A stretch of 32,311 nucleotides of DNA, from contig JAKJGV010000011.1 of assembly GCA_022704185.1 (NCBI GenBank), forward strand, positions 1 to 32,311, given 5' to 3'. A model generated the notes under the pieces. It did not search any database. It was not told where the DNA came from and worked only from the letters and a program-made list of their open reading frames with translations. Position numbers and translations under genes: made by a program. Every line of letters starts with the position of its first letter. Position 1 is the stretch's first letter. Source of the DNA: Verrucomicrobiota bacterium. GTDB taxonomy: Bacteria; Verrucomicrobiota; Kiritimatiellia; CAIQIC01; JAGNIJ01. Shown here one piece after another: positions 11,417 to 27,447 of the stretch.

Positions 11417-12115
11417 ATGAAGCTGTCTGTAAAAGATGCGGCTGAGTTGATGGGGGTCACGCCCAAGACGATCTACCGATGGATCCAGGAATCGGATCTG
11501 CCCGCATATCGTATCGAGGGTCAATACCGGCTCAACAAGATGTTGCTCCTTGAGTGGGCACGCGCGAAACGAATCAACGTCGCGGCTCCCATTCTGGAGG
11601 AAACACCGGGCGGGCCGGTAACCAAGCTGTCCGATGCTCTTCGCAACGGCGGCATCTTCTATCGCATCGGCGGCCATGACCGGGAATCGGTTCTCCGCGC
11701 CGTCGTGGAGATGTTGCGGTTGCCCGAATCGGTTGATCGTGAATTCGTCTACCAGGCCCTCCTCGCCCGCGAACGGCTGCAATCCACCGGCCTCGGTGGA
11801 GGCGTCGCCGTGCCGCACGTGCGCAATCCTCTTGTGCTCGATGTCGAGACGCCCGGCGTGACGCTCTGTTTCCTGGACAAGCCGGTTGATTTCGCCGCAC
11901 TCGACGGACAACCCGTGCAAGTGCTCTTCACCCTCGTGTCCCCCAGCGTTCGCGCGCACCTTTATCTGCTCTCGCGCCTGTCGTTCTGCCTGCAAGATCC
12001 GAAGTTCAAGGCAGCACTCCAAAGGCAGGCGATTCGCGAAGACATCATGGACGAGATCGTTCGCATCGAAACTTCCTTCCCCGGCGCCGATCCGTCCCAA
12101 GCGAGCCGGCCATGA
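11417..12115 (+). CDS. Helix-turn-helix - PTS EIIA (PtsN-like) fusion regulator
   Basis: The 232-residue protein starts with an excisionase/MerR-like DNA-binding helix-turn-helix (about 1-50; AAELMGVTPKTIYRWI). Residues about 68-225 form a type-2 EIIA domain of the PtsN/fructose family. The phosphorylatable histidine is H134 in GGVAVPHVRNP. In the PTS, this histidine receives phosphate from HPr/NPr; in PtsN-like proteins the phosphorylation state is a signal rather than part of sugar uptake. The fusion suggests a phosphorylation-controlled DNA-binding regulator. Its TGA overlaps the ATG of the next gene (ATGA), so it is translationally coupled to the Ehr-type complex and probably controls that operon; this last step is inference. 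No EI, HPr or sugar transporter is nearby. Confidence 0.9.
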   Translation: MKLSVKDAAELMGVTPKTIYRWIQESDLPAYRIEGQYRLNKMLLLEWARAKRINVAAPILEETPGGPVTKLSDALRNGGIFYRIGGHDRESVLRAVVEMLRLPESVDREFVYQALLARERLQSTGLGGGVAVPHVRNPLVLDVETPGVTLCFLDKPVDFAALDGQPVQVLFTLVSPSVRAHLYLLSRLSFCLQDPKFKAALQRQAIREDIMDEIVRIETSFPGADPSQASRP

Positions 12116-14085
12116 ATGGTCTCACGCCGGGTCTCCTTCTCTTCCTCGCGGGCGGAATCTGCGCGCTCGGCCTGCGCCGTTTCCCGGCAGCCGCCTCGTG
12201 GGCCGCCACGACGGGCGCCGTTCTCGGCAGCGTCGCGGGACTCTGCGGGGCGTTGAGTACGCTGATCCACGGCGTGACCGAAGCTTCCAGCTTCCCATGG
12301 TCCCTCCCCTACGCAGCCTTCGATCTCGCCCTCGACCCGCTCTCGGCGTTCTTCATGGTGCCGCTGTTCCTGCTGTCCGCGGTCTCGGCCCTGTACGGAG
12401 AACTCTATCTCCGACACGGAAAGAACGCACAACGGCGAGGGGATGCCGGGTTTCTCTTCAACCTGCTGGTGCTTTCCATGGCGCTCGTACTCGCGGCGCG
12501 CAATACCCTCCTCTTCCTCGTCGCGTGGGAGCTGATGGCGCTCAGCTCGTTTGCGTTGGTGATCTTCGAAGACACGGATGATTCGACGCGCAAGGCGGGC
12601 TGGAGCTACCTGATCGCATCCCAGGCCGGAACGGCATTCCTGTTCTTCTTCTTCATACTTCTCGGAAACGGGGCCACAGATTTTTCGGATTTCACGGCGC
12701 CCGCCGCCCCCGCGCGCAAAGCGATTCTCTTCGTCCTCGCGCTCGCCGGTTTTGGAACCAAGGCCGGGTTTGTCCCCCTGCACGTCTGGCTGCCGCGCGC
12801 ACATCCCGCCGCCCCCAGCCATGTCTCGGCCCTCATGTCAGGCATCATGATCAAGATGGGCATCTATGGGATTCTTCTCACGCTTCGGATCCTCGGCCCC
12901 CTCCCGCCGTGGTGCGGATGGCTGGTCACATCGATCGGGGCCTCGTCCGGTGTGCTCGGGGTGCTGTTCGCCCTGTCTCAACACGATTTGAAGAAGCTGC
13001 TGGCATATCACAGCGTGGAGAACATCGGGATCATCGCATTGGGCATGGGGCTCGGCATGCTGGGACTCGCCTATGAATTGCCGGCCATCGCCCTGCTGGG
13101 TTTCGCGGGAGCTATTCTGCATGTGGTGAATCACGCCCTGTTCAAGGGACTCCTGTTCCTCAGCGCGGGAAGCGTGCTGCAGGCGGCTCGCACTCGCGAA
13201 ATGGATCATCTCGGCGGCCTGGTCCGGCACATGCCCTTCACGGCCGCGGCCTTTCTCGTGGGTTCGGCGGCCATCTGCGGGCTTCCGCCGTTCAACGGGT
13301 TCGTAAGCGAGTTCCTGATCTACCTCGGCTCCCTCTATGCCGTGAGACAACCCACGGCCGAACCCTCGCTGGTCGCGCTGGGAATCCTGGCGAGCCTCGC
13401 GCTGATCGGAGGTCTGGCCCTTGCCTGCTTTGCAAAGGCCTTCTCGATCGTGTTTCTCGGCCATGCGCGATCTACCCAGGCCGGCAGGGTGGCCGACCCG
13501 GGACCGTTGATGACGGTCCCCATGGCCCTTCTCGCGATGCTGTGCCTCGCGATCGGCTGCAGCGCCCCCGCGATGTTCCCGCCCCTCATGCGGGTGGCCG
13601 CACAGCTTGCGGGACAAAACGAGCTGTCCACCGTCCTTCCCGATGTTCTGCCGGTCGCGTCGGCCCTGACGATGGGTGTCGGACTGCTGATCCTGCTCGT
13701 GATTGCCGCGGCCTTCACCCGGAAATGGGTGCTGCGCGGCCGTGATGCCGGTCTCGCGGAAACGTGGGGCTGCGCATACACGGCCCCGTCTCCCCGCATG
13801 CAGTACACCTCTTCGTCGTTTGCCTCTCCGATCGTCCGGTTCTTCTCATCCGTATTGAGGCCGATCGAAACGCACGCGCCTGTTGACGGACTGTTCCCGG
13901 CGCGCGGGCGCGTGGAAACGCATACGCCGGACGTGTTCGAGAACGCGCTTTACGAATCGCCCGCGCGATGGGGCGCGGAAAGGATGAGGCGGCTGCGAGG
14001 AAAGGTTCAGCATGGACATATGAACCTCTATGTCCTCTACATCGCCCTCACGCTGCTCGCCCTGCTGCTGTGGAAGCTCCTATGA
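12112..14085 (+). CDS. hyfB: HyfB-like antiporter-type membrane subunit of Ehr complex
   Basis: The 657-residue polytopic protein belongs to the NuoL/NuoM/MrpA family and resembles HyfB/HycC. It carries the conserved TM glutamate E140 (AWELMALSSF) and the channel lysines K217 (GFGTKAGFVP) and K248. The NuoL-type HDLKKLLAYHSVENIG segment is at about 291-306. It has roughly 14-16 helices, with a C-terminal helix after a cytoplasmic stretch. In this family such subunits translocate H+ or Na+ driven by redox change in the peripheral arm. It shares ATGA junctions with both neighbours, showing tight translational coupling. The name hyfB is by homology; the operon lacks a true NiFe site. Confidence 0.9.
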   Translation: MNGLTPGLLLFLAGGICALGLRRFPAAASWAATTGAVLGSVAGLCGALSTLIHGVTEASSFPWSLPYAAFDLALDPLSAFFMVPLFLLSAVSALYGELYLRHGKNAQRRGDAGFLFNLLVLSMALVLAARNTLLFLVAWELMALSSFALVIFEDTDDSTRKAGWSYLIASQAGTAFLFFFFILLGNGATDFSDFTAPAAPARKAILFVLALAGFGTKAGFVPLHVWLPRAHPAAPSHVSALMSGIMIKMGIYGILLTLRILGPLPPWCGWLVTSIGASSGVLGVLFALSQHDLKKLLAYHSVENIGIIALGMGLGMLGLAYELPAIALLGFAGAILHVVNHALFKGLLFLSAGSVLQAARTREMDHLGGLVRHMPFTAAAFLVGSAAICGLPPFNGFVSEFLIYLGSLYAVRQPTAEPSLVALGILASLALIGGLALACFAKAFSIVFLGHARSTQAGRVADPGPLMTVPMALLAMLCLAIGCSAPAMFPPLMRVAAQLAGQNELSTVLPDVLPVASALTMGVGLLILLVIAAAFTRKWVLRGRDAGLAETWGCAYTAPSPRMQYTSSSFASPIVRFFSSVLRPIETHAPVDGLFPARGRVETHTPDVFENALYESPARWGAERMRRLRGKVQHGHMNLYVLYIALTLLALLLWKLL

Positions 14086-15011
14086 AGCTCGTTCTCCAGA
14101 ATTTGGCCGCCCCGCTCCTGGGGATCCTTCTCGCGCCGCTGCTTCCGGGCATCGTCAACAAGGTAAAGGCCTTTTTCGCGGGCCGGCGTGGCCCCCCCCT
14201 GCTGCAGCTCTATTACGATCTCTTCAAACTGATGTCCAAGGGCGCCGTGTACAGCCACACCACGTCCTGGCTGTTCCGTGCGGGCCCCGTCGTCTCGACG
14301 GCATCCGTCCTCACCGCGCTGTTCTTCGTCCCCTGCGGGATGCGCGCCCCCTGCTCGTTCCCCGGCGACCTGTTGCTGGTCTTCTACCTCCTCGGGCTCG
14401 CGCGGTTCTTCACGGTGATCGCCGCCATGGATACCGGTTCCAGCTTCGAGGGCATGGGAGCCAGCCGCGAGGCGCAATTCTCGGCCTTCGCCGAAGTGGG
14501 GCTCTTCATCGCTTTCGCGGCGTTGGTGCGGATGACGGGACAGCTCTCGCTTTCCGACATCTTCGAACATGTCACCCCGGACCTCTGGCGCACGCACGCG
14601 CCCTCCCTCCTGCTCGGCGCCGTCGTGATCATGATTATTTTGCTGGCGGAGAATTCACGCATCCCGGTGGACGATCCCAACACGCATCTCGAATTAACCA
14701 TGATTCACGAGGTGATGGTGCTGGATCACGGCGGACCCGATTTCGCGATGATCCTCTACTCCTCCGCCCTGAAGCTCTGGCTTTTCGCGGCCTGGTTTGC
14801 GGGCGTCGTCGCACCTCGCTTCGAGGGTTCCAACGCGCTCACGGCGGCAGCCACCCTCGGCGGCATGCTGCTTGCGGCCGTCCTGACCGGCATCATCGAA
14901 TCAACCATGGCAAGGCTCCGCCTGCTGCGAGTGCCCCAACTCCTGATCGGAGCGGCCGCCCTTGCCTTCGTCGCGTTTCTTCTGACATGCCGGGGAGGCG
15001 CCCAGCCATGA
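14082..15011 (+). CDS. hyfC: HyfC/NuoH-like membrane subunit of Ehr complex
   Basis: The 309-residue protein with about eight helices belongs to the NuoH/HyfC/HycD family, which connects the peripheral redox arm with the ion-translocating membrane arm. The RRGPPLLQLYYDLFKL segment (about 35-50) and the cytoplasmic loop SRIPVDDPNTHLELTMIHE are the hallmark acidic loops near the quinone-like cavity in complex I relatives. The start is ATG 14082, inside the ATGA overlap with hyfB. Reading frames that begin earlier would only overlap hyfB. The gene also ends in an ATGA overlap with the next one. Confidence 0.93.
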   Translation: MKLVLQNLAAPLLGILLAPLLPGIVNKVKAFFAGRRGPPLLQLYYDLFKLMSKGAVYSHTTSWLFRAGPVVSTASVLTALFFVPCGMRAPCSFPGDLLLVFYLLGLARFFTVIAAMDTGSSFEGMGASREAQFSAFAEVGLFIAFAALVRMTGQLSLSDIFEHVTPDLWRTHAPSLLLGAVVIMIILLAENSRIPVDDPNTHLELTMIHEVMVLDHGGPDFAMILYSSALKLWLFAAWFAGVVAPRFEGSNALTAAATLGGMLLAAVLTGIIESTMARLRLLRVPQLLIGAAALAFVAFLLTCRGGAQP

Positions 15012-15643
15012 ACGATCTGCTCCTCATCCTCGTCATCCTCACCAACCTCCGCCTGCTGGCCTCGAGCCGGCTCGGCTCGTGCATCACATGGGCGGCGTGG
15101 CAGGGAATCGTGCTGGGCGTGCTCACGATCAGCGCGGCATGGCCCCATCCTCCGCTCCAGACCTGGGTGCTGGCCGTCATGGCCGCTTCGTTGAAGGGGC
15201 TCGTCTTTCCATGGCTCCTCTTCCGAACGCTCCGGCGCGTGCAGGTGCGCCGCGAAATCGAGCCCTATCTCGGATTCAACCTTTCCCTCGGAATCGGACT
15301 TCTGCTGCTTTGCGTCGCGTTCGGTCTTGCGCGGCGCCTGCCCGTCCCGGAGGGGCTCGGCAGCGCATTCTGGATGCCCGCCGCCTTCTTCTCGCTGCTC
15401 GCGGGACTCTTGCTCATCGTCGCGCGCAAGACGGCGATCATGCAGGTGATCGGCTATCTTGTGCTCGAAAACGGAATCTTTGCCTACGGCGCAGGCGCGG
15501 CGCGGCATGCGCCCCTTGTTCTGGAATTGGGCATACTGCTCGACTTGTTCGTGGCCGTTTTCGTGATGGGCATTGCCCTCTTTCATATCGCCCGCGACTT
15601 CGACCACATCAGCGTGGATCGCCTCGTGTCACTGAAGGAATGA
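15008..15643 (+). CDS. hyfE: HyfE-like membrane subunit of Ehr complex
   Basis: The 211-residue protein with about six to seven helices resembles HyfE, which contains a NuoK-like part. The LVLENGIFAYG segment carries an intramembrane glutamate typical of NuoK/HyfE proton paths. A C-terminal HISVDRLVSLKE tail is typical of HyfE. It starts in an ATGA overlap with hyfC and is followed by four bases before hyfF, so it is co-translated. HyfE-type subunits occur in group 4 hydrogenases of the Hyf type and in Ehr complexes. Confidence 0.88.
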   Translation: MNDLLLILVILTNLRLLASSRLGSCITWAAWQGIVLGVLTISAAWPHPPLQTWVLAVMAASLKGLVFPWLLFRTLRRVQVRREIEPYLGFNLSLGIGLLLLCVAFGLARRLPVPEGLGSAFWMPAAFFSLLAGLLLIVARKTAIMQVIGYLVLENGIFAYGAGAARHAPLVLELGILLDLFVAVFVMGIALFHIARDFDHISVDRLVSLKE

Positions 15644-15647
15644 CCGA

Positions 15648-17126
15648 ATGACCAGCGAAACCATACTGTACGGCCTCGTGCTGCTGCCCCTGTTCGGCGG
15701 CTTGGCCGCGTTCGCGCTGCGATCGGACCGGCTGCGGCGCGCGCTTCTGCTGCTCGTCGCATTCGGGCATCTCGCGCTCGCGCTCATGGCGCTGCGCGCG
15801 CGGCCAGCACCGGTGCTGAACGGCTGGATCGCGCTGGATGATGCCGGACTCCTCTTCCTGCTCGTCACGAGCATCCTCTTTGCGGCCGCGGCGGTATATG
15901 CCCAGGGATACCTGCGCTCCGAATCCCGCCCGGCGCACCGTGACCCGGAGGAAAGCTTCCTCTTCGACAACGCGCCCGAGGCGGTATTCACGGGATGCCT
16001 CCTGCTGTTTCTCGGCACCATGACGCTCGTGGAAGTGAGCCGGCATCTCGGACTGGTCTGGGTGGCCGTGGAAGCCACGACGCTGGCCAGCGCGCCGCTG
16101 ATCTACTTTCACCGCCATCACCGCTCGCTCGAGGCCGTGTGGAAGTACCTGATGATCTGTTCCGTCGGCATCGCGCTCGCGCTGCTCGGCCTGTTCTTCC
16201 TCGTTTCCGTCGAGTTCGCCCCCTCGCTGCAACTCGACCACATCCTTCGAGACGCCGCGCGCCTGCCCGCGCCGTGGCTGAAAGCCGCGTTCATCTTCAT
16301 GCTGGTCGGCTACGGCACCAAGATGGGGCTCGCGCCGATGCACACCTGGCTGCCCGACGCACACAGCGAGGCGCCCTCGCTCGTCTCCGCGCTGCTGTCC
16401 GGCTCGCTGCTCAACTGCGCGTTTCTTGCCTTGTGGCGAATGGTCCAGGTTTGCACGGCCGCCGGCCTCGGCGATTTCGTCCGCGACCTGCTTCTCGCGC
16501 TGGGCCTCGTGTCGCTCGGCATGGCCGCCCTGTTCATCGTTCAGCAACGCGACTTCAAACGTCTTCTCGCGTACTCCAGCATCGAGAACATGGGCATCAT
16601 GGCCATCGGCGCGGCCCTCGGCGCAACCGGCGCCGCCGGCGCGTTCCTGCATGCGTTGAATCACTCGCTGATCAAGGGCGCTCTCTTCTTCGTTGCCGGG
16701 AGCCTGCTCGCCCTGTACGGCACCCGCGCGACGGATGCCGTGCGCGGTCTTTCCCGGCGGGCCCCCGCGGTGGCGCGACTCTGGTTGCTCGGACTGCTCG
16801 CCATCGGCGGCATGCCCCCGTTCGGCGCCTTTGCCAGCAAATTCATCGTCGTCCGGTCCGCGATCGTGCAAGGGCACGCAGCCGTTGCCGCCGCATTTCT
16901 TCTCCTGGTGTTCGTTGTGTTCGTCGGTCTGTCCGGCGTCGCGCTGCGGATGATTCTCGGGCCCCCTTCGGAGCCGAAATCCGAATCGCGCGCCGCCCTC
17001 TCGCCGGCGTGGATCGTGCCACCCGCCGTTCTCCTGCTGCTGTCGCTGGTGCTCGGCGTCTGCATCCCCGCGTTCCTGGAGCGCATAATCCAGGGCGCAG
17101 CGGGCATAACGGGGGTGTGGCCGTGA
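15648..17126 (+). CDS. hyfF: HyfF-like antiporter-type membrane subunit of Ehr complex
   Basis: The 492-residue polytopic protein is a second NuoL/M/N-family subunit, shorter than HyfB and closest to HyfF (NuoN/NuoM-like). Conserved residues include E142 (VAVEATTLAS), K225 (GYGTKMGLAPMHTWLPDAHS) and the RDFKRLLAYSSIENMG segment. It has about 13-14 helices. Its presence gives the complex two antiporter-like modules, implying more than one ion-pumping site. The start is ATG 15648, with AAGGA about nine bases upstream in the end of hyfE. Its stop overlaps the GTG of hyfG. Confidence 0.92.
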   Translation: MTSETILYGLVLLPLFGGLAAFALRSDRLRRALLLLVAFGHLALALMALRARPAPVLNGWIALDDAGLLFLLVTSILFAAAAVYAQGYLRSESRPAHRDPEESFLFDNAPEAVFTGCLLLFLGTMTLVEVSRHLGLVWVAVEATTLASAPLIYFHRHHRSLEAVWKYLMICSVGIALALLGLFFLVSVEFAPSLQLDHILRDAARLPAPWLKAAFIFMLVGYGTKMGLAPMHTWLPDAHSEAPSLVSALLSGSLLNCAFLALWRMVQVCTAAGLGDFVRDLLLALGLVSLGMAALFIVQQRDFKRLLAYSSIENMGIMAIGAALGATGAAGAFLHALNHSLIKGALFFVAGSLLALYGTRATDAVRGLSRRAPAVARLWLLGLLAIGGMPPFGAFASKFIVVRSAIVQGHAAVAAAFLLLVFVVFVGLSGVALRMILGPPSEPKSESRAALSPAWIVPPAVLLLLSLVLGVCIPAFLERIIQGAAGITGVWP

Positions 17127-18604
17127 ACACCACGCTCAGAAATCCGGAGGCCATCCGGCTGGCCGACATCCCCCTGCTCGACATCGCGACGTTCCGCAAC
17201 CGCATACTGACCGCGGTCGCCGAAGGCGGCCGTGTGAACGCGCTGTTCTGCCATGAACAAGAGGACCAAGCTCACCAACTCTTCGCCTTGCTCGCGCACC
17301 CGGGGCAGAACACGCTCGAGGGGATCGCCGCGCGGATTGGGGGCGAATACCCCGCGTTGACGCCTGAATGTCCGCAGGTCCACCTGTTCGAACGCGAGAT
17401 GGCGGAAAGCGGCGGAGTGACTCCGGTCGGACACCCGTGGCTGAAACCGGTCCGATTTCCCGCACGCGCCGGTGGGCCCCCCGTCGGACACATGGACTTC
17501 TACCGCGTCGACGGCGACGAGGTCCACGAGGTCGCCGTCGGCCCCGTGCACGCGGGCATCATTGAGCCCGGCCATTTCCGTTTTCAGTGCCACGGGGAGA
17601 CCGTGCTTCATCTCGAAATATCGCTGGGCTATCAGCACCGCGGCGTCGAGCGCGCGCTCATCGGCGGCCCGGACATCCGGACCCTCCACTACATGGAAAC
17701 GCTCGCCGGCGATACCACGATCGGACACACGACCGCGTACTGCCAGCTTGCCGAAGCGCTCGGCGGAATCCGCGTGCCGCTGCGCGCGGAAGCCTTGCGC
17801 GCCGTCGCGCTGGAGCTGGAGCGTCTCGCCAACCACACCGGCGACCTCGGGGCGCTGGCGGCCGACATCGGGTTTCTGCCCACCTCCGCATACTGCGGGC
17901 GCATTCGCGGAGACTTCCTCAATATGAGCGCGCTTCTCTGCGGATCGCGCTTCAGCCGCGGCCTCGTACGGCCCGGCGGTGTCGCGTTCGATCTCGAACC
18001 GGTCCGGCGCGCCGAATTGCAGAAACGTCTGCTCGCGGCCCAGCGCGACGTCACGGGCGCCGTGACTCTCCTCTGGAGCAACCCCTCGGTCCTCGCGCGA
18101 TTCGAAGACACCGGCAGGTTGTCGGCCACGCAGTGCCGCGAATTGGGCCTCGTGGGACCCGCGACTCGCGCGGCCGGTGTGGATCAGGATGTCCGCGCGG
18201 ACCTGCCCCACGGCTTCTACCGGTTCTTCCAGATTCCCGCGGCCGCGATGACGAGCGGCGACGTGTTCGGCCGGGCTTACGTGCGCTGGCTCGAAATCCA
18301 GCGCTCCATCGAGTTCATTCTCAACACCCTGTCCGCCCTGCCCGGAGGGGACGTGACAGCCCATCCGAAGACCCTGAAACTGCAGCCGGAAGCGCTGGCC
18401 GTTTCCCTCGTCGAAGGCTGGCGCGGCGAGATCTGTCACGTGGCCTTGACCGGTCCCAACGGCCGGTTCACGCGGTATAAAGTGTTCGATGCCTCGTTTC
18501 ATAACTGGCTCGGACTCGCGCTCGCTATGCGTGCCGGGCAGATCTCCGATTTCCCACTCTGCAACAAGAGCTTCAATCTTTCGTACTGCGGATTCGATCT
18601 CTGA
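17123..18604 (+). CDS. hyfG: HyfG-like large subunit lacking NiFe ligands (Ehr catalytic-type subunit)
   Basis: The 493-residue protein fuses an N-terminal NuoC-like domain (about 1-115; HLFEREMAESGG) to a NuoD/NiFe-large-subunit domain (about 125-493). HLEISLGYQHRGVE and ERLANHTGDLGALAADIGF are clear family motifs. At the position of the first NiFe CxxC loop (ERICGIC type) it reads ETLAGDTTIGH (192-202), with A195 and T198 in place of the cysteines. The C-terminus FPLCNKSFNLSYCGFDL lacks the DPCxxC motif and the cleavable extension; its cysteines C480 and C489 are not a CxxC. Hence it cannot hold a standard NiFe centre. This fits Ehr complexes, whose substrate is unknown. The start is GTG 17123 (GTGA overlap with hyfF, GGGGGTG upstream). 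Complex I is unlikely because the rest of the operon is Hyf-like. Confidence 0.9.
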   Translation: MNTTLRNPEAIRLADIPLLDIATFRNRILTAVAEGGRVNALFCHEQEDQAHQLFALLAHPGQNTLEGIAARIGGEYPALTPECPQVHLFEREMAESGGVTPVGHPWLKPVRFPARAGGPPVGHMDFYRVDGDEVHEVAVGPVHAGIIEPGHFRFQCHGETVLHLEISLGYQHRGVERALIGGPDIRTLHYMETLAGDTTIGHTTAYCQLAEALGGIRVPLRAEALRAVALELERLANHTGDLGALAADIGFLPTSAYCGRIRGDFLNMSALLCGSRFSRGLVRPGGVAFDLEPVRRAELQKRLLAAQRDVTGAVTLLWSNPSVLARFEDTGRLSATQCRELGLVGPATRAAGVDQDVRADLPHGFYRFFQIPAAAMTSGDVFGRAYVRWLEIQRSIEFILNTLSALPGGDVTAHPKTLKLQPEALAVSLVEGWRGEICHVALTGPNGRFTRYKVFDASFHNWLGLALAMRAGQISDFPLCNKSFNLSYCGFDL

Positions 18605-18616
18605 GGCCATGCACCC

Positions 18617-19378
18617 ATGATCACCACGATCTTCGAACGATTGAAACAGGGCTACCGGACGCAGCGCTTTCCCCCGGCGCAGGACACTCTTCCGGACAGG
18701 CTCCAAGGACTTCCGGCAGTCGAGCCGGATCGCTGCCGCACGGATTGCAGCCAATGCATCGCGGCCTGCCCGACACAAGCCATTGGACGAAACGCCGCCG
18801 GCAGGCTGTCCATTGACCTCGGGCGCTGCCTGTTCTGCGGCGAATGCGAGAAAGCCTGTCCTTCCGGCGCGATCCGTTTCTCGAACGGCTATCGCCTCGC
18901 CACCCGCAAACGCGAAGACCTCCTGGTTTCCGGCAATCACGGCATCCGGCTCGCGGAAGCCTTGAACCGCGAGACGCTGCGGCTGTTCGGCCGCTCGCTG
19001 AAACTCCGGCAGGTCTGCGCGGGCGGCTGCAACGCCTGCGAGGCGGACACCAACGTGCTGAATACGCTGGTATTCGACCTTGGGCGCTTCGGCATCCAGT
19101 TCGTCGCTTCTCCCCGGCACGCGGACGGATTGCTCATCACGGGACCCGTCACGGAGAACATGCGGGAAGCTCTACTCAAGACATGGGAAGCGGTGCCTGC
19201 GCCCCGACTCGTGATCGCCGTCGGGGCCTGCGCGATATCGGGCGGCCCCTTCATCGGCCATCCGGAGGCGCACGATGGCGCATCGAACGTCATCCCCGTG
19301 GATCTCTTCGTCCCCGGTTGCCCGCCGCATCCGTGGACCATCTTGGACGGGATGTTGAGATTGCTGGCGCGCGTTTAG
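18617..19378 (+). CDS. hyfI: Fused ferredoxin - HyfI/NuoB-like small subunit of Ehr complex
   Basis: The 253-residue protein carries two ferredoxin-type cluster motifs: C40, C44, C47, C51 and C71, C74, C77, C81. A NuoB/NiFe-small-subunit domain follows (about 125-253). Its proximal cluster ligands are all present: C138 and C141 (CNACE), C205 (GACAISGG) and C235 (PGCPPHP). It thus combines HyfH/NuoI-like and HyfI/NuoB roles and carries electrons between the clusters and the large subunit. The first ferredoxin motif has C-x3-C instead of the usual C-x2-C spacing. It starts 12 bases after hyfG with a weak GAGG. No terminator is visible between its end and the convergent kinase gene. Confidence 0.92.
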   Translation: MITTIFERLKQGYRTQRFPPAQDTLPDRLQGLPAVEPDRCRTDCSQCIAACPTQAIGRNAAGRLSIDLGRCLFCGECEKACPSGAIRFSNGYRLATRKREDLLVSGNHGIRLAEALNRETLRLFGRSLKLRQVCAGGCNACEADTNVLNTLVFDLGRFGIQFVASPRHADGLLITGPVTENMREALLKTWEAVPAPRLVIAVGACAISGGPFIGHPEAHDGASNVIPVDLFVPGCPPHPWTILDGMLRLLARV

Positions 19379-19414: not shown

Positions 19415-22400
19415 CTACCACATGACCAGGAAGGGGCAGGCGAAGCCGGATTCGATGTCATCCCATTTCCCGTCGGAGAACGTAATCAACGAATGCTGCG
19501 TCCCCCGGTTGTTGTCCGGCTGAACGGGCATCCATGCCGTAAACTTCCATGGCGCGCCGCCGACCCATTGCCAGTCCCCCTCCTTCTTCGCGTCCGTCCC
19601 CCCCAGTCGTATCGGCATGCCCGGCAGCGCAAAGTTGGCAATGATCCAATCCATCTCCTCCTTGCTCGCCACGGAGGCCAGTGTGCCGCCGACCGACCGA
19701 CTGAAGGCCACCGCTCCGTCAAAGTCCGCGTAGCGGGGAGCCAGCGCGTAGTCCTTCCCATTGAACGTTTTGGCGAGCGCGCGGATGTTCTGCGGCGCGG
19801 CGGCCGCGCCCTTGAGATCCGGAATCCGCTTCTCCGCGAACACGCGCAACAGGTTGACCGTCGGCACAAGAGCCGGGACCCCCTCCACGTCGCCCGCAAG
19901 CTTCAGCGCCGCCTGTGCCGCATCGTCGAACCGGCCCGCCTCGACCGCCTGCGCCACCGGCGCCATGATTCGCATCTGGTCCCACCGGTCCCAAACCAGC
20001 ACTTCAAGGGTGGACATGCCGCGGAGCGGACTCATGTCCGCGAATGCAACCCCCGTGATGTTCAGCGCCTTGAGCGGCATGCCCTTCAGGGGAGACAGGT
20101 CCGTCACCTTCGTGCGCGCGAAGTACAGATGCGTCAGGGGCATTCCGCCAAGCGGGCCCAGATCGGCAAGCGCTCCGCAATGATCCGCCACCAGCTCGCG
20201 AAGCGGAAGCGTCTTCACCGGCGTGAGATCTGAAACCCCGGTGCCGGAAATGACGAGGCTCTCGAGAGGCATACCTTCCAGCGGGGAAAGATCGGTCACG
20301 GCCGTGCCCGCGACCATCAGCCACTTCAGCTGCATGCCTTTCAGGGCCTTGAGATCGACGATTCTCGTCTTCCATAGGCTCAGCCACTCGAGCGGCAACG
20401 GGCGAAGCGGACGCACATCCGTTATCGGGCAACTGCCGAGGTCCAGCTTGACCAGCGGCATGTCGGAGAGGCCCGTGACCACATTCACCGGGTTCCCCGA
20501 AAGGTTCAGGACCCTCAAGGGCGCACCCTTCAACGGCCGGACCGTCCGAACCTTGCAGCCGGACAGATTCAGCTCTTCGAGGGGCATCCCGGCAAGGATC
20601 TGGATGTCGTCCACCGGGCAACCGCTGAGGTCGAGTGTGCGCAACGGCATCATGCGCAGCGCCGTGAGATCCACCACCTTGGTTTTCGACAGATTCAGCT
20701 TCGTCAACGGGAGGCGCTCGAGCGCGGCGATATTCGACAATTCGGGGTTGTTGGACAAGTCCATCTCGATGCCTTCGGCACTGACATCATGCATGAACAG
20801 AAGCTCGGTCACCTGCGGATTGTCCATCCGCAGACGCTGAACGGCCTGTTCAAGGATCGCGGGATCCACTTCGCGGGGCACCGTGTCCACTCGTTCAAGC
20901 GCCTGCAGCAGGGCTTCCGCCCGCTTGGCCGTCTCGCTGTCCCCGTATACCTTGTTGAACCTCGATGCCGCATCGCGGATCCGCGCGACATCCGCCGCCG
21001 GATACGGCGTGCGGCGAATGCCGCGAACAACCTCCTCCGTGGCTTCTGTGGCAGGCGGCAGTCCGACCAGTCTCAACAATCCCGCGAAGGTCTTTTCGGC
21101 TTCCACCTCCCGCGCATCGGCGAGCCGCTGGTCAACCTGTTCCGCGAGTTCACGGCCCAGTGACGACCCGGCCCGCGCGAAGAAGACCTTTGCCGCCGAC
21201 GTCTTCTGCCATTGGTTCAGCAGCAGGCCGCGCATGATATCGAGTTCCGGCGACGCCTCCTTGCCCAGCCGGTCGAACCGTTCCTGAAAACCCAACTCCT
21301 CGATGACGAAATCCCTCTGCGCATAACCCGCCCCCTCGAAATGCCTTTGCGCGCGGACGCGCCCGTCCTGCCCGACCAACCCGATCTTCAGCAACTGCGG
21401 TCCAGTGGAAAAAAGCACCCTGATTTCGCGACCCTGGTCGCCGCGGAAGGAATCCAGAATGACCCGCGGCATCTCCGACACCTTGCCGACCTGCTTTCTG
21501 AGCGCTTGCAGCTCGGGCTCGACGGATTGCCACTCGCCCTCGCTTTCGGCCGCGTCCAATCGCATCATCGCCTGCGCGAAATCCGACTTAAGCACGTCGG
21601 CGGCCACCGAGCGCAGCAAATCGTTGAGGCGCGACTGGGCTCTCTCGGTCTTCTCGCGAAGGGCGCGCTTGGCTTCCTCGTCGCGGCGGACGATTTCCTC
21701 TGCCAGCTCCTTCCGCTTCTCCAGCGTGTCGTCCGCATGAGGGCCCTTGTAGTCGAGCAACAACGCCGCGGCTTCCTCCGGCTTGCCCTCCTGCTGCAAC
21801 TGTCCGGCCTCCGCGGTCAACCCGGCGATGACGGCTTCCAGCACCTGCTTCCTGGCCGCATCCAGGCGCCGCAATTCGTTTTCCGCCCGTATCTCGTACT
21901 CGGTTCCCTGGCCCTCACTGCGGATCGCTTCGAACCAGCGGATCACGCCCGCGAAGTCGTCGGGATGCTCGCGTTCATACCGCGCCGCCTCGGCCAGTTT
22001 CTTCTCGAGCGCCGAGGCCCGCGCGTCCTCCGCGGATTCCTGTTGCACCGCCTGGGAAGTCTCTTCCGGAATCGGCGCCCGCGCCCGTTCCCCGGTGACC
22101 ACCCGCCACACCACGACCAACCCCGCAGCGACGGCGGCCAGCAGCAGCACCACCCCGGCCACGGGAAGCCAGGACTCCGATTTCCGCGATGGCTCGACCG
22201 TTCGATCATGAAGCTTTCTCACCTGAGAATGCCGCAACACGATCTTCTTCTGGTCCATCGGACTGCCGCCCATCGCGCGAACGCGGAGCATCGCGGATTC
22301 GCCCGGGCCCAGCGGCTTCTTCAAAGGATGCTCCCCGGCCATAACCCGTTCGATATCCCCGATCAACGCGCTCCAGCTCGGATGCCGGTCGTCGCGTTCC

Positions 22401-23275
22401 ATGGCCAGCATGAGCGCCAGCAGTTCCACGCAGGCATCGGACACGTCCGGATTCAAGTCGCGCGGGTCCGTCAACGGTTCCGACGCCTGCTTCTCGAAAA
22501 CATCTTCCGGCGGCACCCCGTCGAACGGCAGGCTCCCTGTCACCATGTGGTAAAGCGTGGCGCCGAGCGAGTACATGTCCGAACGGAAATCGATTTCCAC
22601 GTTGCCCGCGCCCTGCTCCGGGCTCATGTAGTTGGGTGTGCCGACCACCCAGCCGTCGCTGACCTGGATGCCGGAATGCCGCAGGCTTCGCGACAAGCCG
22701 AGGTCGGTGAGCCGCGGATCGCCGTGGGCGTCCATCACGATGTTCGCCGGCTTGATGTCGCGGTGCAGCAACCGGTGCTCCCTCCAGGCATAGTCCAGCG
22801 CGCCGGCCAGCTTGTGGACGATCTGCAGCGCTTCCTGCTCCGGAATCGAACGCACGCGCTCCAGCCGGGACGCCAGGGATTCGCCCACGTAAGCCATCGC
22901 GAGAAAGTAAACGCCCCCGTCCTCTCCCGATTCATGGGCGGTCACGATGTTCGGATGCTCCAGTTTCGCTTGGAGCCGCACCTCGTGCAGAAAGAGCTCC
23001 ACCGCGTCCTTGTCCCGGGTGAACTCCGGCGGCAGGATCTTCAAGGCGACATCACGATCCATGGAGACCTGGTACGCGAGATAGACTTCGCCCATCGCGC
23101 CGCGACCCAGGAGCTTCTTGATCTTGAACCCGCCGATGGTAACTCCCGGACCCAGCGGCCTGGCGGGAATGGTTACAACGCTCGCGCACTGCGGACAGGG
23201 CACCTGCGAGCCAACGGCATCGGCCTCGACTTCAAGCTTGGCCTTGCATTTCGGGCAAGAGAAGGAAATCAGCAC
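19415..23275 (-). CDS. Membrane Ser/Thr protein kinase with zinc ribbon, leucine-rich repeats and C-type-lectin-like C-terminus
   Basis: The 1286-residue protein has an N-terminal zinc-ribbon-like module (C7, C10, C27, C30) and a Hanks-type kinase domain (about 50-310). Kinase landmarks are the GRGAMGEV loop, K79, the HRDIKPAN catalytic loop (D173), DLG in place of DFG, and GTPNYMSPEQ. A TM helix lies at about 369-390, followed by a long charged, coiled-coil-prone stretch. Leucine-rich repeats of about 22-23 residues span about 850-1095. Residues about 1172-1286 resemble a C-type lectin domain (GGTLASV, WDD) but have a single cysteine. The part after the TM is predicted to be outside. The start is GTG 23275, set by AAGGAAGG upstream; an ATG at 23332 is also in frame. 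It follows clpC by 70 bp. Targets are unknown. Confidence 0.88.
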   Translation of the reverse strand: MLISFSCPKCKAKLEVEADAVGSQVPCPQCASVVTIPARPLGPGVTIGGFKIKKLLGRGAMGEVYLAYQVSMDRDVALKILPPEFTRDKDAVELFLHEVRLQAKLEHPNIVTAHESGEDGGVYFLAMAYVGESLASRLERVRSIPEQEALQIVHKLAGALDYAWREHRLLHRDIKPANIVMDAHGDPRLTDLGLSRSLRHSGIQVSDGWVVGTPNYMSPEQGAGNVEIDFRSDMYSLGATLYHMVTGSLPFDGVPPEDVFEKQASEPLTDPRDLNPDVSDACVELLALMLAMERDDRHPSWSALIGDIERVMAGEHPLKKPLGPGESAMLRVRAMGGSPMDQKKIVLRHSQVRKLHDRTVEPSRKSESWLPVAGVVLLLAAVAAGLVVVWRVVTGERARAPIPEETSQAVQQESAEDARASALEKKLAEAARYEREHPDDFAGVIRWFEAIRSEGQGTEYEIRAENELRRLDAARKQVLEAVIAGLTAEAGQLQQEGKPEEAAALLLDYKGPHADDTLEKRKELAEEIVRRDEEAKRALREKTERAQSRLNDLLRSVAADVLKSDFAQAMMRLDAAESEGEWQSVEPELQALRKQVGKVSEMPRVILDSFRGDQGREIRVLFSTGPQLLKIGLVGQDGRVRAQRHFEGAGYAQRDFVIEELGFQERFDRLGKEASPELDIMRGLLLNQWQKTSAAKVFFARAGSSLGRELAEQVDQRLADAREVEAEKTFAGLLRLVGLPPATEATEEVVRGIRRTPYPAADVARIRDAASRFNKVYGDSETAKRAEALLQALERVDTVPREVDPAILEQAVQRLRMDNPQVTELLFMHDVSAEGIEMDLSNNPELSNIAALERLPLTKLNLSKTKVVDLTALRMMPLRTLDLSGCPVDDIQILAGMPLEELNLSGCKVRTVRPLKGAPLRVLNLSGNPVNVVTGLSDMPLVKLDLGSCPITDVRPLRPLPLEWLSLWKTRIVDLKALKGMQLKWLMVAGTAVTDLSPLEGMPLESLVISGTGVSDLTPVKTLPLRELVADHCGALADLGPLGGMPLTHLYFARTKVTDLSPLKGMPLKALNITGVAFADMSPLRGMSTLEVLVWDRWDQMRIMAPVAQAVEAGRFDDAAQAALKLAGDVEGVPALVPTVNLLRVFAEKRIPDLKGAAAAPQNIRALAKTFNGKDYALAPRYADFDGAVAFSRSVGGTLASVASKEEMDWIIANFALPGMPIRLGGTDAKKEGDWQWVGGAPWKFTAWMPVQPDNNRGTQHSLITFSDGKWDDIESGFACPFLVMW

Positions 23276-23345
23276 GCGCGACCTTCCTTGAAAGAAACCC
23301 TGGGGAAGCGTACCCCTTCGCGAGCCCGGCATAAAGGATTTTCAC

Positions 23346-25817
23346 TCAGCTCGTTCCCGCGAGCTGGCCGAACCGCAGGCGGTCTTCGTCGGCGGTGACT
23401 TCGACGACTTCGTCCTTGTGGATGTGGCCCTTGAGGATCTCTTCGGCCAGCGGGTCTTCCAGGTAGCGCTCCACCGCCCGCCGCATGGGCCGCGCGCCGT
23501 ATTGCGGGTCGTACCCCTTGGCCATCAGGAACTCCTTCGCCGCGTCGGTGAGATGGAGGTCTATCTTCTTCTGCGCGAGGCGCGTCCGGATCTTCTCCAC
23601 CTCGATGTCGAGGATCTTGACCACGTCGTCCTTGGTCAGCTGGCGGAACACCACGATCTCGTCCACGCGATTCAACAACTCGGGACGGAACACGCGCTTG
23701 GCCTCTTCCTGCATCTGCTTCTTCAGCGTCTCGTAATCCGCCGCCAGGTCGCCCTTGCCGAAGCCCAGCGTCCCGCCCTTGCGCACGAGGTCCGCGCCGA
23801 GGTTGGAAGTCATCAGCACGATCGTGTTCCGGAAATCCACGGTGCGCCCGAGGCTGTCCGTGAGCTTGCCCTCCTCGAGGATCTGGAGCAGCACGTGCAT
23901 CACGTCCGGGTGGGCCTTCTCGACCTCGTCGAAAAGCACCACCGAGTACGGCCGCCGGCGCACCTTCTCCGTGAGCTGGCCGCCCTCTTCATAGCCGATG
24001 TAGCCCGGAGGCGATCCGACCAGCCGCGAGACCGCAAACTTCTCCATGTACTCCGACATGTCGATCTGGATGAGCGCGTCCGGGTTGTCGAACATGAACT
24101 CCGCCAGCGCGCGCGCCAGCAGCGTCTTGCCGACGCCCGTCGGGCCCAGCAGGATGAACGAGCCGTTTGGCCGCCGCGGGTCCTTCAGGTCCGCGCGCGA
24201 ACGCCGCAGCGCCTTGGAAATCGCGCCGACCGCTTCCGGCTGGCCGACCACCACCTTCTCGACGTCCTGCTCCATGTGCAGCAGGCGCGCCATCTCGACA
24301 TCTTCCATCTTCGTCACCGGAACGCCGGTCCACTTGGATACGATGACCATGATATCCTCGGCCGAAACCGGCACGATGGTCTCGTCGCGGGACTTGCGCC
24401 ATCCCTCCATGACCTTTTCCATCTCCTCGCGGGCCACCCGTTCCTGGTCGCGGAAAGACGCCGCCTCCTCGAAATGCTGCTGGCGGATCGCCTCTTCCTT
24501 CTTCTTCCGGATCTCCTCGATCTGGCGCTCCTTCTCCTTGATCTCCGGCGGGCGCGTCATCGCCCCGATGCGCGCGCGGGCGCCGGCCTCATCCACGAGA
24601 TCAATCGCCTTGTCGGGAAGATAACGGTCCGTGAGATAGCGCGAACTCAACACCGCGGCGTCGCGAATCGCCTCGTCGCTGATCTGCGCGTGGTGATGCG
24701 CCTCGTAGCGCGGCCGCAGGCCCTTGAGGATTTCGACGGTCTCCTCGATCGTCGGCTCGCGAACCATCACCGACTGGAACCGCCGCTCCAGCGCGGAATC
24801 CTTCTCGATGAATTTCCGGTACTCCGCGAGGGTGGTCGCTCCGATGCACTGCAGCTCCCCGCGGGACAACGCGGGCTTGATGATGTTCGACGCGTCCATC
24901 GCGCCTTCCGCCGAGCCCGCGCCCACGATCGTATGCAATTCGTCAATGAAGAGAATCACGTTCTTCGACCGGCGGATTTCGTCCATCACCGCCTTGATGC
25001 GCTCCTCGAACTGGCCGCGATACTTCGTGCCCGCCACCATCAACGCCAGGTCGAGCGTGATCACCTTCTTGTCCCGCAACAGCTCGGGCGCCTCGCCGCG
25101 CGCGATCGCCTGCGCCAGGCCCTCGACGATCGCCGTCTTGCCGACCCCCGCCTCGCCCAGCAGAACCGGGTTGTTCTTCGTGCGACGGCACAGGATCTGC
25201 ACCACCCGCTCAATCTCGGGCTGCCGCCCGATCACGGGATCCAGCTCGCCCTTGGATGCCAGGTCCGTCAGGTCGCGGCCGAACGTCGCCAGCGCGGGCG
25301 TCTTCGAATCGCGCGGCGCGGCCGCGCCGGGATGGCTCGGCTCCGCCTCCGGTCCACCCGCCATCTCGCTGCCCGGATCGTAGTTCGGGTCGAGTTCCTT
25401 CATGACCTCGACGCGCGTTTTCTCGATATCAATGTTCAGATTCTTCAGCACCCGCGCGGCAACCCCCTCGCCCTCGCGCAGGAGCCCCAGCAGGATGTGC
25501 TCGGTGCCGACATACGCATGATTGAGCGCCCGGGCCTCGCTGCCGGCCAGCGCAAGGACCTTCTTCACGCGCGGGGTGAATGGAACATTCCCGACCGTCT
25601 TCGTCTCCGGCCCCACGCCCACCGCCTTCTCCACCTCGAGCCTGACCGTATCCAGGTCAATGCCCATCTTGCGCAGCACGTTGACCGCGACGCCCTGACC
25701 CAGCGCGATCAGGCCGAGCAGGACGTGCTCCGTTCCCACGTACCCGTGGTTGAAACGGTCCGCTTCCTTGCGTGCCAGTTGCAGCACCTGTTGAGCCCTG
25801 GGCGTAAAGTTGTTCAT
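23346..25817 (-). CDS. clpC: ClpC, ATP-dependent Clp protease ATPase subunit
   Basis: The 823-residue AAA+ unfoldase delivers proteins to ClpP. It has a double Clp-N domain (about 1-145), Walker A GEAGVGKT (221-228) in the first ATPase module, and a middle domain with a UVR-like segment (about 420-470). A second Walker A, GPTGVGKT, is near 555-563, and a ClpP-loop-like LGF motif follows GADLVRKGG. The length matches ClpC and not ClpB. In Firmicutes, ClpC recognises phosphoarginine-tagged proteins made by McsB. Its ATG shares an ATGA overlap with the mcsB stop, so the genes are translationally coupled. No clpP is in the window. Confidence 0.97.
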
Positions 25818-26896
25818 TCCTTCTTCTTCTCTTCCACCATGCCGACACCCGCGCGAACCAACTGCTGGCGCACCCGTTGCGCCCTTGCCAGATCACGATC
25901 CCGGGTCCGCAGCTTCCGTCCCTGCGTTTTCTGCAGATGCCCCGGCTGCGTCGTCAGCAGCAGCGCGTCCACCGCCTGCCGGTTCTTCGCTTTCAATATA
26001 CCCAAATCCAGCCCCAAGCGCAACCCGGACAGGAGATCGAGCGCTTCTTTCGAGGAAAGGATGTGCGCGTGCGACAGGATCCCGTAGGCCCGGCCCACAT
26101 GATCCCGCACCACGCTGCCTTTCTTCTCCATCAGCCGCTCCCGCGCGTTCTTCTCATGTTCGACAATCTCCAGCACGATCTGCTCGATGCTCCCGACAAT
26201 CCGCTCCTCCTTCTCGCCCAGGCTGATCTGGTTCGAGATCTGGAACATGTTGCCGATGGCCTCGGTCCCCTCGCCCCAAAGCCCGCGGACCGCGAGGCCG
26301 ATCTTGCTGACCCCCTTGATGATCGGGTTGATCTCGTTCATCAGGACCAGCCCCGGCACATGCACCATCACGCTCGCGCGCAGTCCCGTGCCCACGTTCG
26401 TCGGGCACGCCGTCAGGTAGCCAAGCTTGGGCGAAAACGCGTAGCGGATGGTCTTCTCGATCTCGCTGTCCACCGCGTCAATCACCTGCCACGCCTCGCG
26501 CACGCCGAGGCCGGGGCGGATGGCCTGCAGCCGCAGGTGGTCCTCTTCGTTCACCATGATGGCGATCGTCTCGTCCCGCCGGGCCACCAATGCGCTGCCC
26601 CGCCCGCGTTCCGCGTGCTCGCGGCTGACCAGGTGCCGCTCGAACAGGATCTGCTTGTCCAGCGGATCCAGCGCGCTCATGTTCAGCACGAAACACGGCT
26701 GAAGCGCCGCGCACGCCTCGACGGCGGGAAGGATCTCGGCGAGGATGCGCTCGCATTCCTCCTCGCCCGCCCAACCGGGAAAAGCCGATTCCTTGAGGTT
26801 GCGCGCCAGCCGCGCGCGGCTGCTGACCACGATGCCGCTGTCCTCGCCCGGCGCGAGCCACGCGCCCTGCTGCTTCAACAAATCGTCAACGGTCAT
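25814..26896 (-). CDS. mcsB: McsB, protein-arginine kinase
   Basis: The 360-residue ATP:guanido phosphotransferase-family enzyme phosphorylates arginine residues in proteins, marking them for Clp[11 protein letters not shown] (25-34), NEEDHLRLQ (116-124) and [14 protein letters not shown] (164-177, with C164) are the family's catalytic and nucleotide-binding motifs. The C-terminal part (about 260-360) has a RDLARA segment similar to the phosphoarginine-binding part of McsB. The start is ATG 26896; longer in-frame readings run into mcsA in another frame and are not homologous. It follows mcsA by 47 bp and overlaps clpC. The order mcsA-mcsB-clpC is that of the Firmicutes stress operon. Confidence 0.96.
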
Positions 26897-26943
26897 ATCC
26901 GTCTTCACCAGAAAAACATCCCCGCCGCTTCGCGCGGCCCAGC

Positions 26944-27447
26944 CTACGGCTGCTTCGCATCTTCCGCGGCCTTCGAGCGCCATCCCGCGATCTGATCGCG
27001 CAGCCGCGCGGCCGTTTCGTAGTCTTCCGCCGCCACCGCCTGCTCCAACTGCTGCTGCAACACCGCCACCGCCGCGGTCATCCGTACCCGCAGGCTCTCG
27101 CCCGCCGGCACCTTCCCGGTGTGCTGCTCGCTCCGGTGCATCGCCTTGACCAGCGGCGCCAGCTCGGAAGCGAAAGTCTCGTAGCAGGAAGGACACCCCA
27201 GGCGCCCCGTCTTCTTGAAGTCGGATCGCCGGAGATGACAGCGGGCGCACGACCGGTCCTCGGCCATGCTGTCCACCTTGCCGCCGCCCATGCCCAGCAG
27301 GATGTCGGTGATGGATATCGGCCCCTGCAAATCCAATCCGCTCTTCGCGGCGCATTCCTCGCACAAGTGGATCTTCTTGACGCTGCCCTCCACCACCTGG
27401 GTGAGATGAACCGTCGCTTCGCGCTCGTTGCATGATTCACAGAGCAT
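26944..27447 (-). CDS. mcsA: McsA, zinc-finger activator of McsB
   Basis: The 167-residue protein has four CxxC knuckles (C3/C6, C29/C32, C67/C70, C85/C88), which bind zinc in McsA, and a C-terminal UVR motif (about 130-155; LQQQLEQAVAAEDYETAARL). In Firmicutes it activates the McsB kinase. The start is ATG 27447, with GGGGGTGG upstream, 16 bp after the ilvE stop. An upstream in-frame reading from 27501 would run into ilvE and lacks support. The full cysteine set suggests a working protein. Confidence 0.94.
   Translation of the reverse strand: MLCESCNEREATVHLTQVVEGSVKKIHLCEECAAKSGLDLQGPISITDILLGMGGGKVDSMAEDRSCARCHLRRSDFKKTGRLGCPSCYETFASELAPLVKAMHRSEQHTGKVPAGESLRVRMTAAVAVLQQQLEQAVAAEDYETAARLRDQIAGWRSKAAEDAKQP

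Follow-up and report, generated by a model that had tools for sequence, protein, structure and literature searches.

Ehr complexes have been reported from many anaerobes. Previous reports already described them as lacking the CxxC motifs and their function as unknown (PMC6349859, PMC7304191, PMC10284858, PMC7894505), and the literature cited here gives no settled function. In Geobacter sulfurreducens, the subunits have been named at GSU0739-45 (PMC7894505). The Pyrococcus MBS (Mbx), another group 4 relative, also has no [NiFe] centre; it keeps two of the four cysteines, has lost the Glu proton donor, and carries a small-subunit proximal-cluster loop that is three residues shorter (PMC7684303).

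We analysed a stretch of 32,311 nucleotides from the MAG of a Verrucomicrobiota bacterium of the class Kiritimatiellia (contig JAKJGV010000011.1), hereafter the window. By its sequence, the large subunit encoded there, EhrL, is an ortholog in this known family, whose function is unsettled, and is about 55-58% identical to the Geobacteraceae large subunits. What our analysis adds is a residue signature, the clade with its paralogous sister, a survey of genome markers, and recurrent losses of the proximal cluster.

The operon and its surroundings

The features of the locus are as follows.

11417-12115, forward strand: regulator with HTH_17 and PTS EIIA (type 2) domains (Pfam), the first gene of the cluster, with the phosphorylatable His134 and a second His181 intact
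12112-14085, forward strand: HyfB-like antiporter-type membrane subunit (NCBIfam hydrogenase 4 subunit B, 1e-174, below cut-off)
14082-15011, forward strand: HyfC/HycD/NuoH-like membrane subunit with E-channel carboxylates (PF00146, 6.6e-35)
14999-15643, forward strand: HyfE-like membrane subunit (NCBIfam PRK11492, 1.1e-22, and a weak PF00420, both below cut-offs)
15648-17126, forward strand: HyfF-like antiporter-type membrane subunit (NCBIfam hydrogenase 4 subunit F, 1.9e-106, below cut-off)
17123-18604, forward strand: EhrL, NuoC-NuoD/HycE-type large subunit without [NiFe] ligands and without a C-terminal extension (alignment, tree and model)
17696-17728, forward strand: ETLAGDTTIGH, EhrL residues 192-202, in place of the first CxxC motif (alignment)
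18542-18601, forward strand: ISDFPLCNKSFNLSYCGFDL, residues 474-493, in place of the second CxxC motif and forming the EhrL C-terminus (alignment)
18617-19378, forward strand: EhrS, HyfH (two [4Fe-4S]) fused to HyfI (proximal [4Fe-4S]) (Pfam Fer4 and Oxidored_q6; cysteine census)

The HTH-PTS EIIA gene is thus followed by six genes in the order HyfB-C-E-F-G-H/I, and this six-gene order recurs in 127 loci across phyla. The regulator is the only recurrent extra gene, lying upstream in 67 of the 111 loci whose operon start is covered, and both H134 and H181 are kept in 66 of these 67 Ehr-linked copies. The fusion in the window is the only one found in the host genome (76% complete). A narrow literature search found no publication on such a regulator, although papers may exist. 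Neighbour clustering over the 127 loci revealed no recurrent oxidoreductase partner gene, and no conserved NAD or flavin module, formate dehydrogenase (FDH) or hydrogenase-maturation gene in the Ehr operons; no ferredoxin gene is linked to Ehr. We called the ORFs of each locus with a script weighted by homology rather than a gene finder, and the start sites given for relatives are approximate. The sets of loci behind the neighbour census and the cysteine census overlap, and a few loci taken from different collections lie on the same contig (e.g. L080 and L067), so that counts refer to loci and not to independent species. Several thresholds, on E-value, overlap and bit score, were fixed at one value each.

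The residues of the ion path are intact in the membrane arm: TM5 E140, TM7 K217, TM8 K248 and TM12 K345 in the HyfB-like subunit, and TM5 E142, TM7 K225 and TM12 K343 in the HyfF-like subunit, in which N occupies the TM8 position, as it does in E. coli HyfF. The HyfC-like E190, D197, E204 and E210 are conserved in 107-108 of 108 relatives, and the antiporter E/K/K and HyfC carboxylates are retained in more than 100 Ehr relatives.

Right after the operon, a minus-strand gene (19415-23332) encodes a protein of 1305 aa that combines leucine-rich repeats with a Ser/Thr kinase and a C-type lectin domain. Further on, a ClpC-like AAA protein (23346-25817; Clp_N, UVR) adjoins an ATP:guanido phosphotransferase (25814-27433), an arrangement that resembles clpC-mcsB. 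Elsewhere, the host encodes an ordinary [NiFe] hydrogenase large subunit with CGIC and CISC intact (G000:C154:39763-40917; L181, L182). Its genome, at 76% completeness, yielded no [FeFe] hydrogenase match and no other NuoD-type gene.

The large subunit and its former [NiFe] pocket

EhrL comprises 493 amino acids, and its GTG start overlaps the stop of the preceding gene. The first-pass annotation had placed the protein in the NuoCD/HyfG family, and this placement holds: it carries a PF00346 domain (Pfam), and its best match among solved structures is E. coli HycE (7z0s_E, 4.8e-48). The AlphaFold2 model (mean pLDDT 85.4) also has 7z0s_E as its top Foldseek match, with a query TM of 0.88. Given that pLDDT falls below 50 at residues 109-125, 141-150 and 489-493, the model has little to say about the pocket loops.

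Alignment to E. coli HycE bears out the earlier reading of the first CxxC as AGDT within ETLAGDTTIGH, as well as the disappearance of the C-terminal DPCxxC. HycE C241, C244, C531 and C534 correspond to EhrL A195, T198, S487 and G490, CGIC being exchanged for AGDT and CYSC for SYCG, and there is no other CxxC pair anywhere in the protein. The predicted absence of a C-terminal cleavage extension was also correct, as the last residue aligns with HycE R537, the end of mature HycE after HycI cleavage; the Ehr operon of the window encodes no maturation protease. Some cysteine-intact hydrogenases in our comparison set also lack the extension, and its absence alone is therefore not decisive against a hydrogenase. 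The replaced motifs are common to 119 orthologs from many phyla, and the ligand loss is therefore neither chance nor sequencing error. By the ligand criterion, with both CxxC pairs gone, the EhrL of the window would thus not be a group 4 [NiFe] hydrogenase, and hydrogen chemistry by EhrL is excluded as far as sequence can tell.

In a tree of 74 rows, all Ehr sequences form one clade (100/97) and NuoD another (100/100), with the group 4 hydrogenases outside Ehr. EhrL falls in the Ehr clade together with the Geobacteraceae orthologs, which are sequences other than that of G. sulfurreducens and include L125, L128 and L142. It lies inside neither the true hydrogenases nor NuoD, and the Ehr-type assignment made at first pass is thereby upheld. 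Named relatives at 53-65% identity occur in Verrucomicrobiota, Kiritimatiellota, Planctomycetota, Myxococcota, Thermodesulfobacteriota (Geobacter argillaceus, Geomonas), Omnitrophota, Elusimicrobiota, Spirochaetota, Acidobacteriota and others. The sister to all Ehr is a cysteine-intact paralog (L056:13892-15475; CGVC, CYSC) without a C-terminal extension, encoded in a second operon that immediately follows a complete Ehr operon. A search of 388 genomes returned nearer relatives of this paralog, and those that we read are cysteine-free Ehr-B types or ordinary hydrogenases.

Ehr-B operons are found on plasmids of Rhizobium, Cupriavidus, Variovorax and Azospirillum. They share the NKSFxxSYxGxD motif and the clade with the window and differ from it in their identity of only 33-42% and in a small subunit of about 177 aa, mostly without the HyfH domain. 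Three such loci (L159, L160 and the second operon of L155) belong to plant-associated or soil Proteobacteria and have a small subunit without this electron-entry domain. Ehr-A and Ehr-B operons stand in tandem in unrelated genomes (L136, L155, L207, L209). Rv0082-Rv0087 of M. tuberculosis may be a further Ehr relative, a candidate suggested in part by the gene order in Rhodococcus.

We scored the ligand, proton-relay and canopy positions defined in the structural study of the formate hydrogenlyase (PMC9474812) in 120 rows, comprising 119 Ehr large subunits and one cysteine-intact hydrogenase (L084_1105). The proton-relay residues E148, H238, R349, E391 and R434 are fixed across the 119 orthologs (R349 in 118, with K in two of the 120 scored rows), and E148 aligns with the proton donor E193 of HycE. 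In nearly all relatives, each of the four ligand positions holds Ala, Ser, Thr or Gly. The canopy Asp has become Asn485 in 115 of the 119 and the canopy Ser Asn237 in 112, D197 is present in every one, and G196 is invariant in groups A1 and A2. The metal and canopy positions thus carry a new conserved set, D197, N237, N485, S487 and G490, and Ehr keeps the hydrogenase-type proton relay without the metal site.

The annotation had further suggested that C480 and C489 point to a different site. The two cysteines are indeed at these positions. As a general rule, however, a new metal site there is rejected, since neither cysteine is constant. Among the orthologs, four have N and one has I in place of C480, others have G, A or S in place of C489, and across the wider family both cysteines are mostly replaced. 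D197, N237, N485 and S487, together with the retained relay, are the better candidates for a site.

Electron supply, coupling and candidate partners

On these grounds, Ehr may be viewed as an ion-translocating membrane complex, related to formate hydrogenlyase and complex I, that has no [NiFe] centre. We infer that a soluble low-potential carrier, presumably ferredoxin, would donate electrons to the fused HyfH/HyfI subunit, and that they would run through three [4Fe-4S] clusters into the former [NiFe] pocket of EhrL. This pocket would be the substrate site for a putative proton-requiring reaction with a small non-quinone partner, and the reaction would power the movement of H+ or Na+ via HyfC, HyfB and HyfF. 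Beneath this proposal stand the family membership, the loss of all four ligands, the conserved relay, the 12 Fe-S cysteines and the unaltered ion-path residues. The six-gene operon without a recurrent redox partner and the marker absences described below also speak for it. We hold it tentatively as a whole, at a little short of even confidence. It is the most likely reading because the window's own clusters are complete: EhrS has 12 of 12 ligand cysteines and is one of the 92 among 133 paired small subunits that keep them all.

The same census also yielded evidence against an electron-fed pump. Most of the first ferredoxin-type motif is missing in about 28 of the 133 small subunits, and in seven (L094, L143, L146, L156, L207, L208, L209) the proximal ligands are lost by substitution in otherwise alignable sequence; in L208, the large and small subunits were paired at a distance of 7.3 kb and the pairing is less sure. 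Parsimony on a quick tree gives seven changes, at least five of them forced by supported branches. The NKSF motif of EhrL is nevertheless intact in all seven loci, which is odd if the pocket needs electrons and suggests that their delivery there is not required in every Ehr. Every HyfB and HyfF recovered from these loci has an intact TM5 E, TM7 K and TM12 K (five of seven for HyfB, not L146 and L156; seven of seven for HyfF), and the HyfC carboxylates are likewise intact in L094, L143, L146 and L209, the only ones with HyfC recovered. The lack of a linked ferredoxin gene also counts against the pump, and the marker absences described below rest on MAGs and single profiles.

The repeated cluster loss therefore keeps alive another reading, which we consider possible, though less probable. 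Ehr may be a gated Mrp-type cation/proton antiporter, with the hydrogenase arm as a regulatory cap and its synthesis controlled by the PTS phosphorylation state. The remodelled pocket would act by proton or ligand binding, and electrons would merely tune it and be dispensable. The relatives in Rhizobium, Azospirillum and Variovorax (second operon) without the HyfH electron-entry domain, the missing conserved redox partner and the EIIA-fused regulator fit this reading. However, the retention of all 12 cysteines in most small subunits indicates that a redox function is maintained in most Ehr, and next to L207 and L209 stands a further Ehr operon that has the proximal cysteines and whose cluster-bearing small subunit may be shared. 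In its full form, in which the pocket is a proton- or ligand-coupled gate, the EIIA control acts at the gene level and the Fe-S chain is repeatedly lost as electrons are no longer essential, the idea seems rather unlikely. If redox is dispensable, Ehr would be a complex I relative without electron delivery to the coupling site, which would bear on coupling throughout the superfamily. Sequence cannot separate the two readings, and we favour electron-fed pumping over redox-dispensable gating.

As for the partner, we surveyed markers in 37 Ehr-positive relatives, 36 of them with a completeness of 90% or more and a contamination of 5% or less (the exception, G109, is 6% contaminated). Both menaquinone-pathway markers, which cover the menaquinone route alone, are missing in 23 of the 37; HypD is missing in nine; and strong Fdh-alpha matches occur in eight and are missing in 29. 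All three kinds of marker are missing together in five genomes (G042, G043, G046, G055, G179). Between Ehr-positive and Ehr-negative relatives, no association with menaquinone (p = 0.31), HypD, FDH or Rnf (p = 0.08, in the direction of avoidance) was significant. Any single absence is weak because the tests use single profiles and the genomes are mostly MAGs. Together, the absences argue against an obligate partnership with H2, a quinone or formate, and drop all three as general Ehr partners within this one bacterial class.

A ferredoxin:quinone oxidoreductase with a NuoD-like quinone pocket, which the homology to NuoD and the NuoH-like subunit might suggest, is accordingly improbable. The His position of complex I is I147/E148 in Ehr (I nearly always, E148 always) and never His, the canopy Asp conserved in all NuoD examined is nearly always Asn, the small subunit has the hydrogenase-type CxxC and not the adjacent CC of NuoB, and the menaquinone markers show neither constancy nor association. 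Cooperation with formate dehydrogenase was proposed for Margulisbacteria and suggested for Geobacter: FDH and NuoE/F-like genes lie beside Ehr in Margulisbacteria and Saganbacteria (PMC6349859), and Ehr protein levels in G. sulfurreducens are higher on formate (PMC7894505). We regard it as very improbable here, given that FDH is found neither in the operon nor among the recurrent neighbours, and that Fdh-alpha is as frequent in Ehr-free relatives. For a sulfane-sulfur reductase of the MBS type, catalysing at the proximal cluster, there is a precedent in a group 4 relative that acts on polysulfide and has lost [NiFe] ligands (PMC7684303), yet Ehr is the reverse of MBS in its ligands and donor and keeps the hydrogenase-spaced CxxC, which makes this reading highly doubtful. 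A hydrogenase with other ligands has nothing beyond homology in its favour and a negligible probability: no Cys stands at the four ligand positions of the EhrL studied here, and in the nine near-complete genomes without HypD no NiFe(CN)2CO cofactor would be made by the known route, which strengthens the annotation's view that hydrogen chemistry is unlikely.

Comparison with known systems

The closest described systems are the Geobacteraceae Ehr, in which G. argillaceus (L128) and Geomonas (L125, L142) share the gene set, the replaced motifs and the clade with the window. They differ in detail: the window has one HyfB-like gene, while several relatives, including Geomonas limicola, have two, and part of the first ferredoxin-type cluster is lost in G. 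argillaceus and kept in the window.

On the larger scale, Ehr resembles MBS as a group 4 relative without the [NiFe] centre. In contrast to MBS as described in PMC7684303, it lacks all four cysteines, has the E148 donor and keeps the hydrogenase-type spacing. With complex I (NuoCD/NuoB), it shares homologous subunits and a membrane arm, but has the Glu donor in place of the β1-β2 loop His, N485 in place of the canopy Asp, and a CxxC instead of the adjacent CC. The Ehr pattern is that of neither complex I, with its His and Asp, nor MBS.

The module of the E. coli formate hydrogenlyase (HycE/HycG/HycF, HyfG/HyfI) is similar in its fold, NuoC-NuoD fusion, proton relay and proximal cluster spacing. 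The window differs in that it lacks the [NiFe] ligands, the C-terminal extension, the protease and the FDH module, has Asn for the canopy Asp and Ser, and has HyfH and HyfI fused. The residue signature thus parts the hydrogenase features that Ehr has kept, the proton relay and the ion path, from those that it has replaced, the metal site and the canopy.
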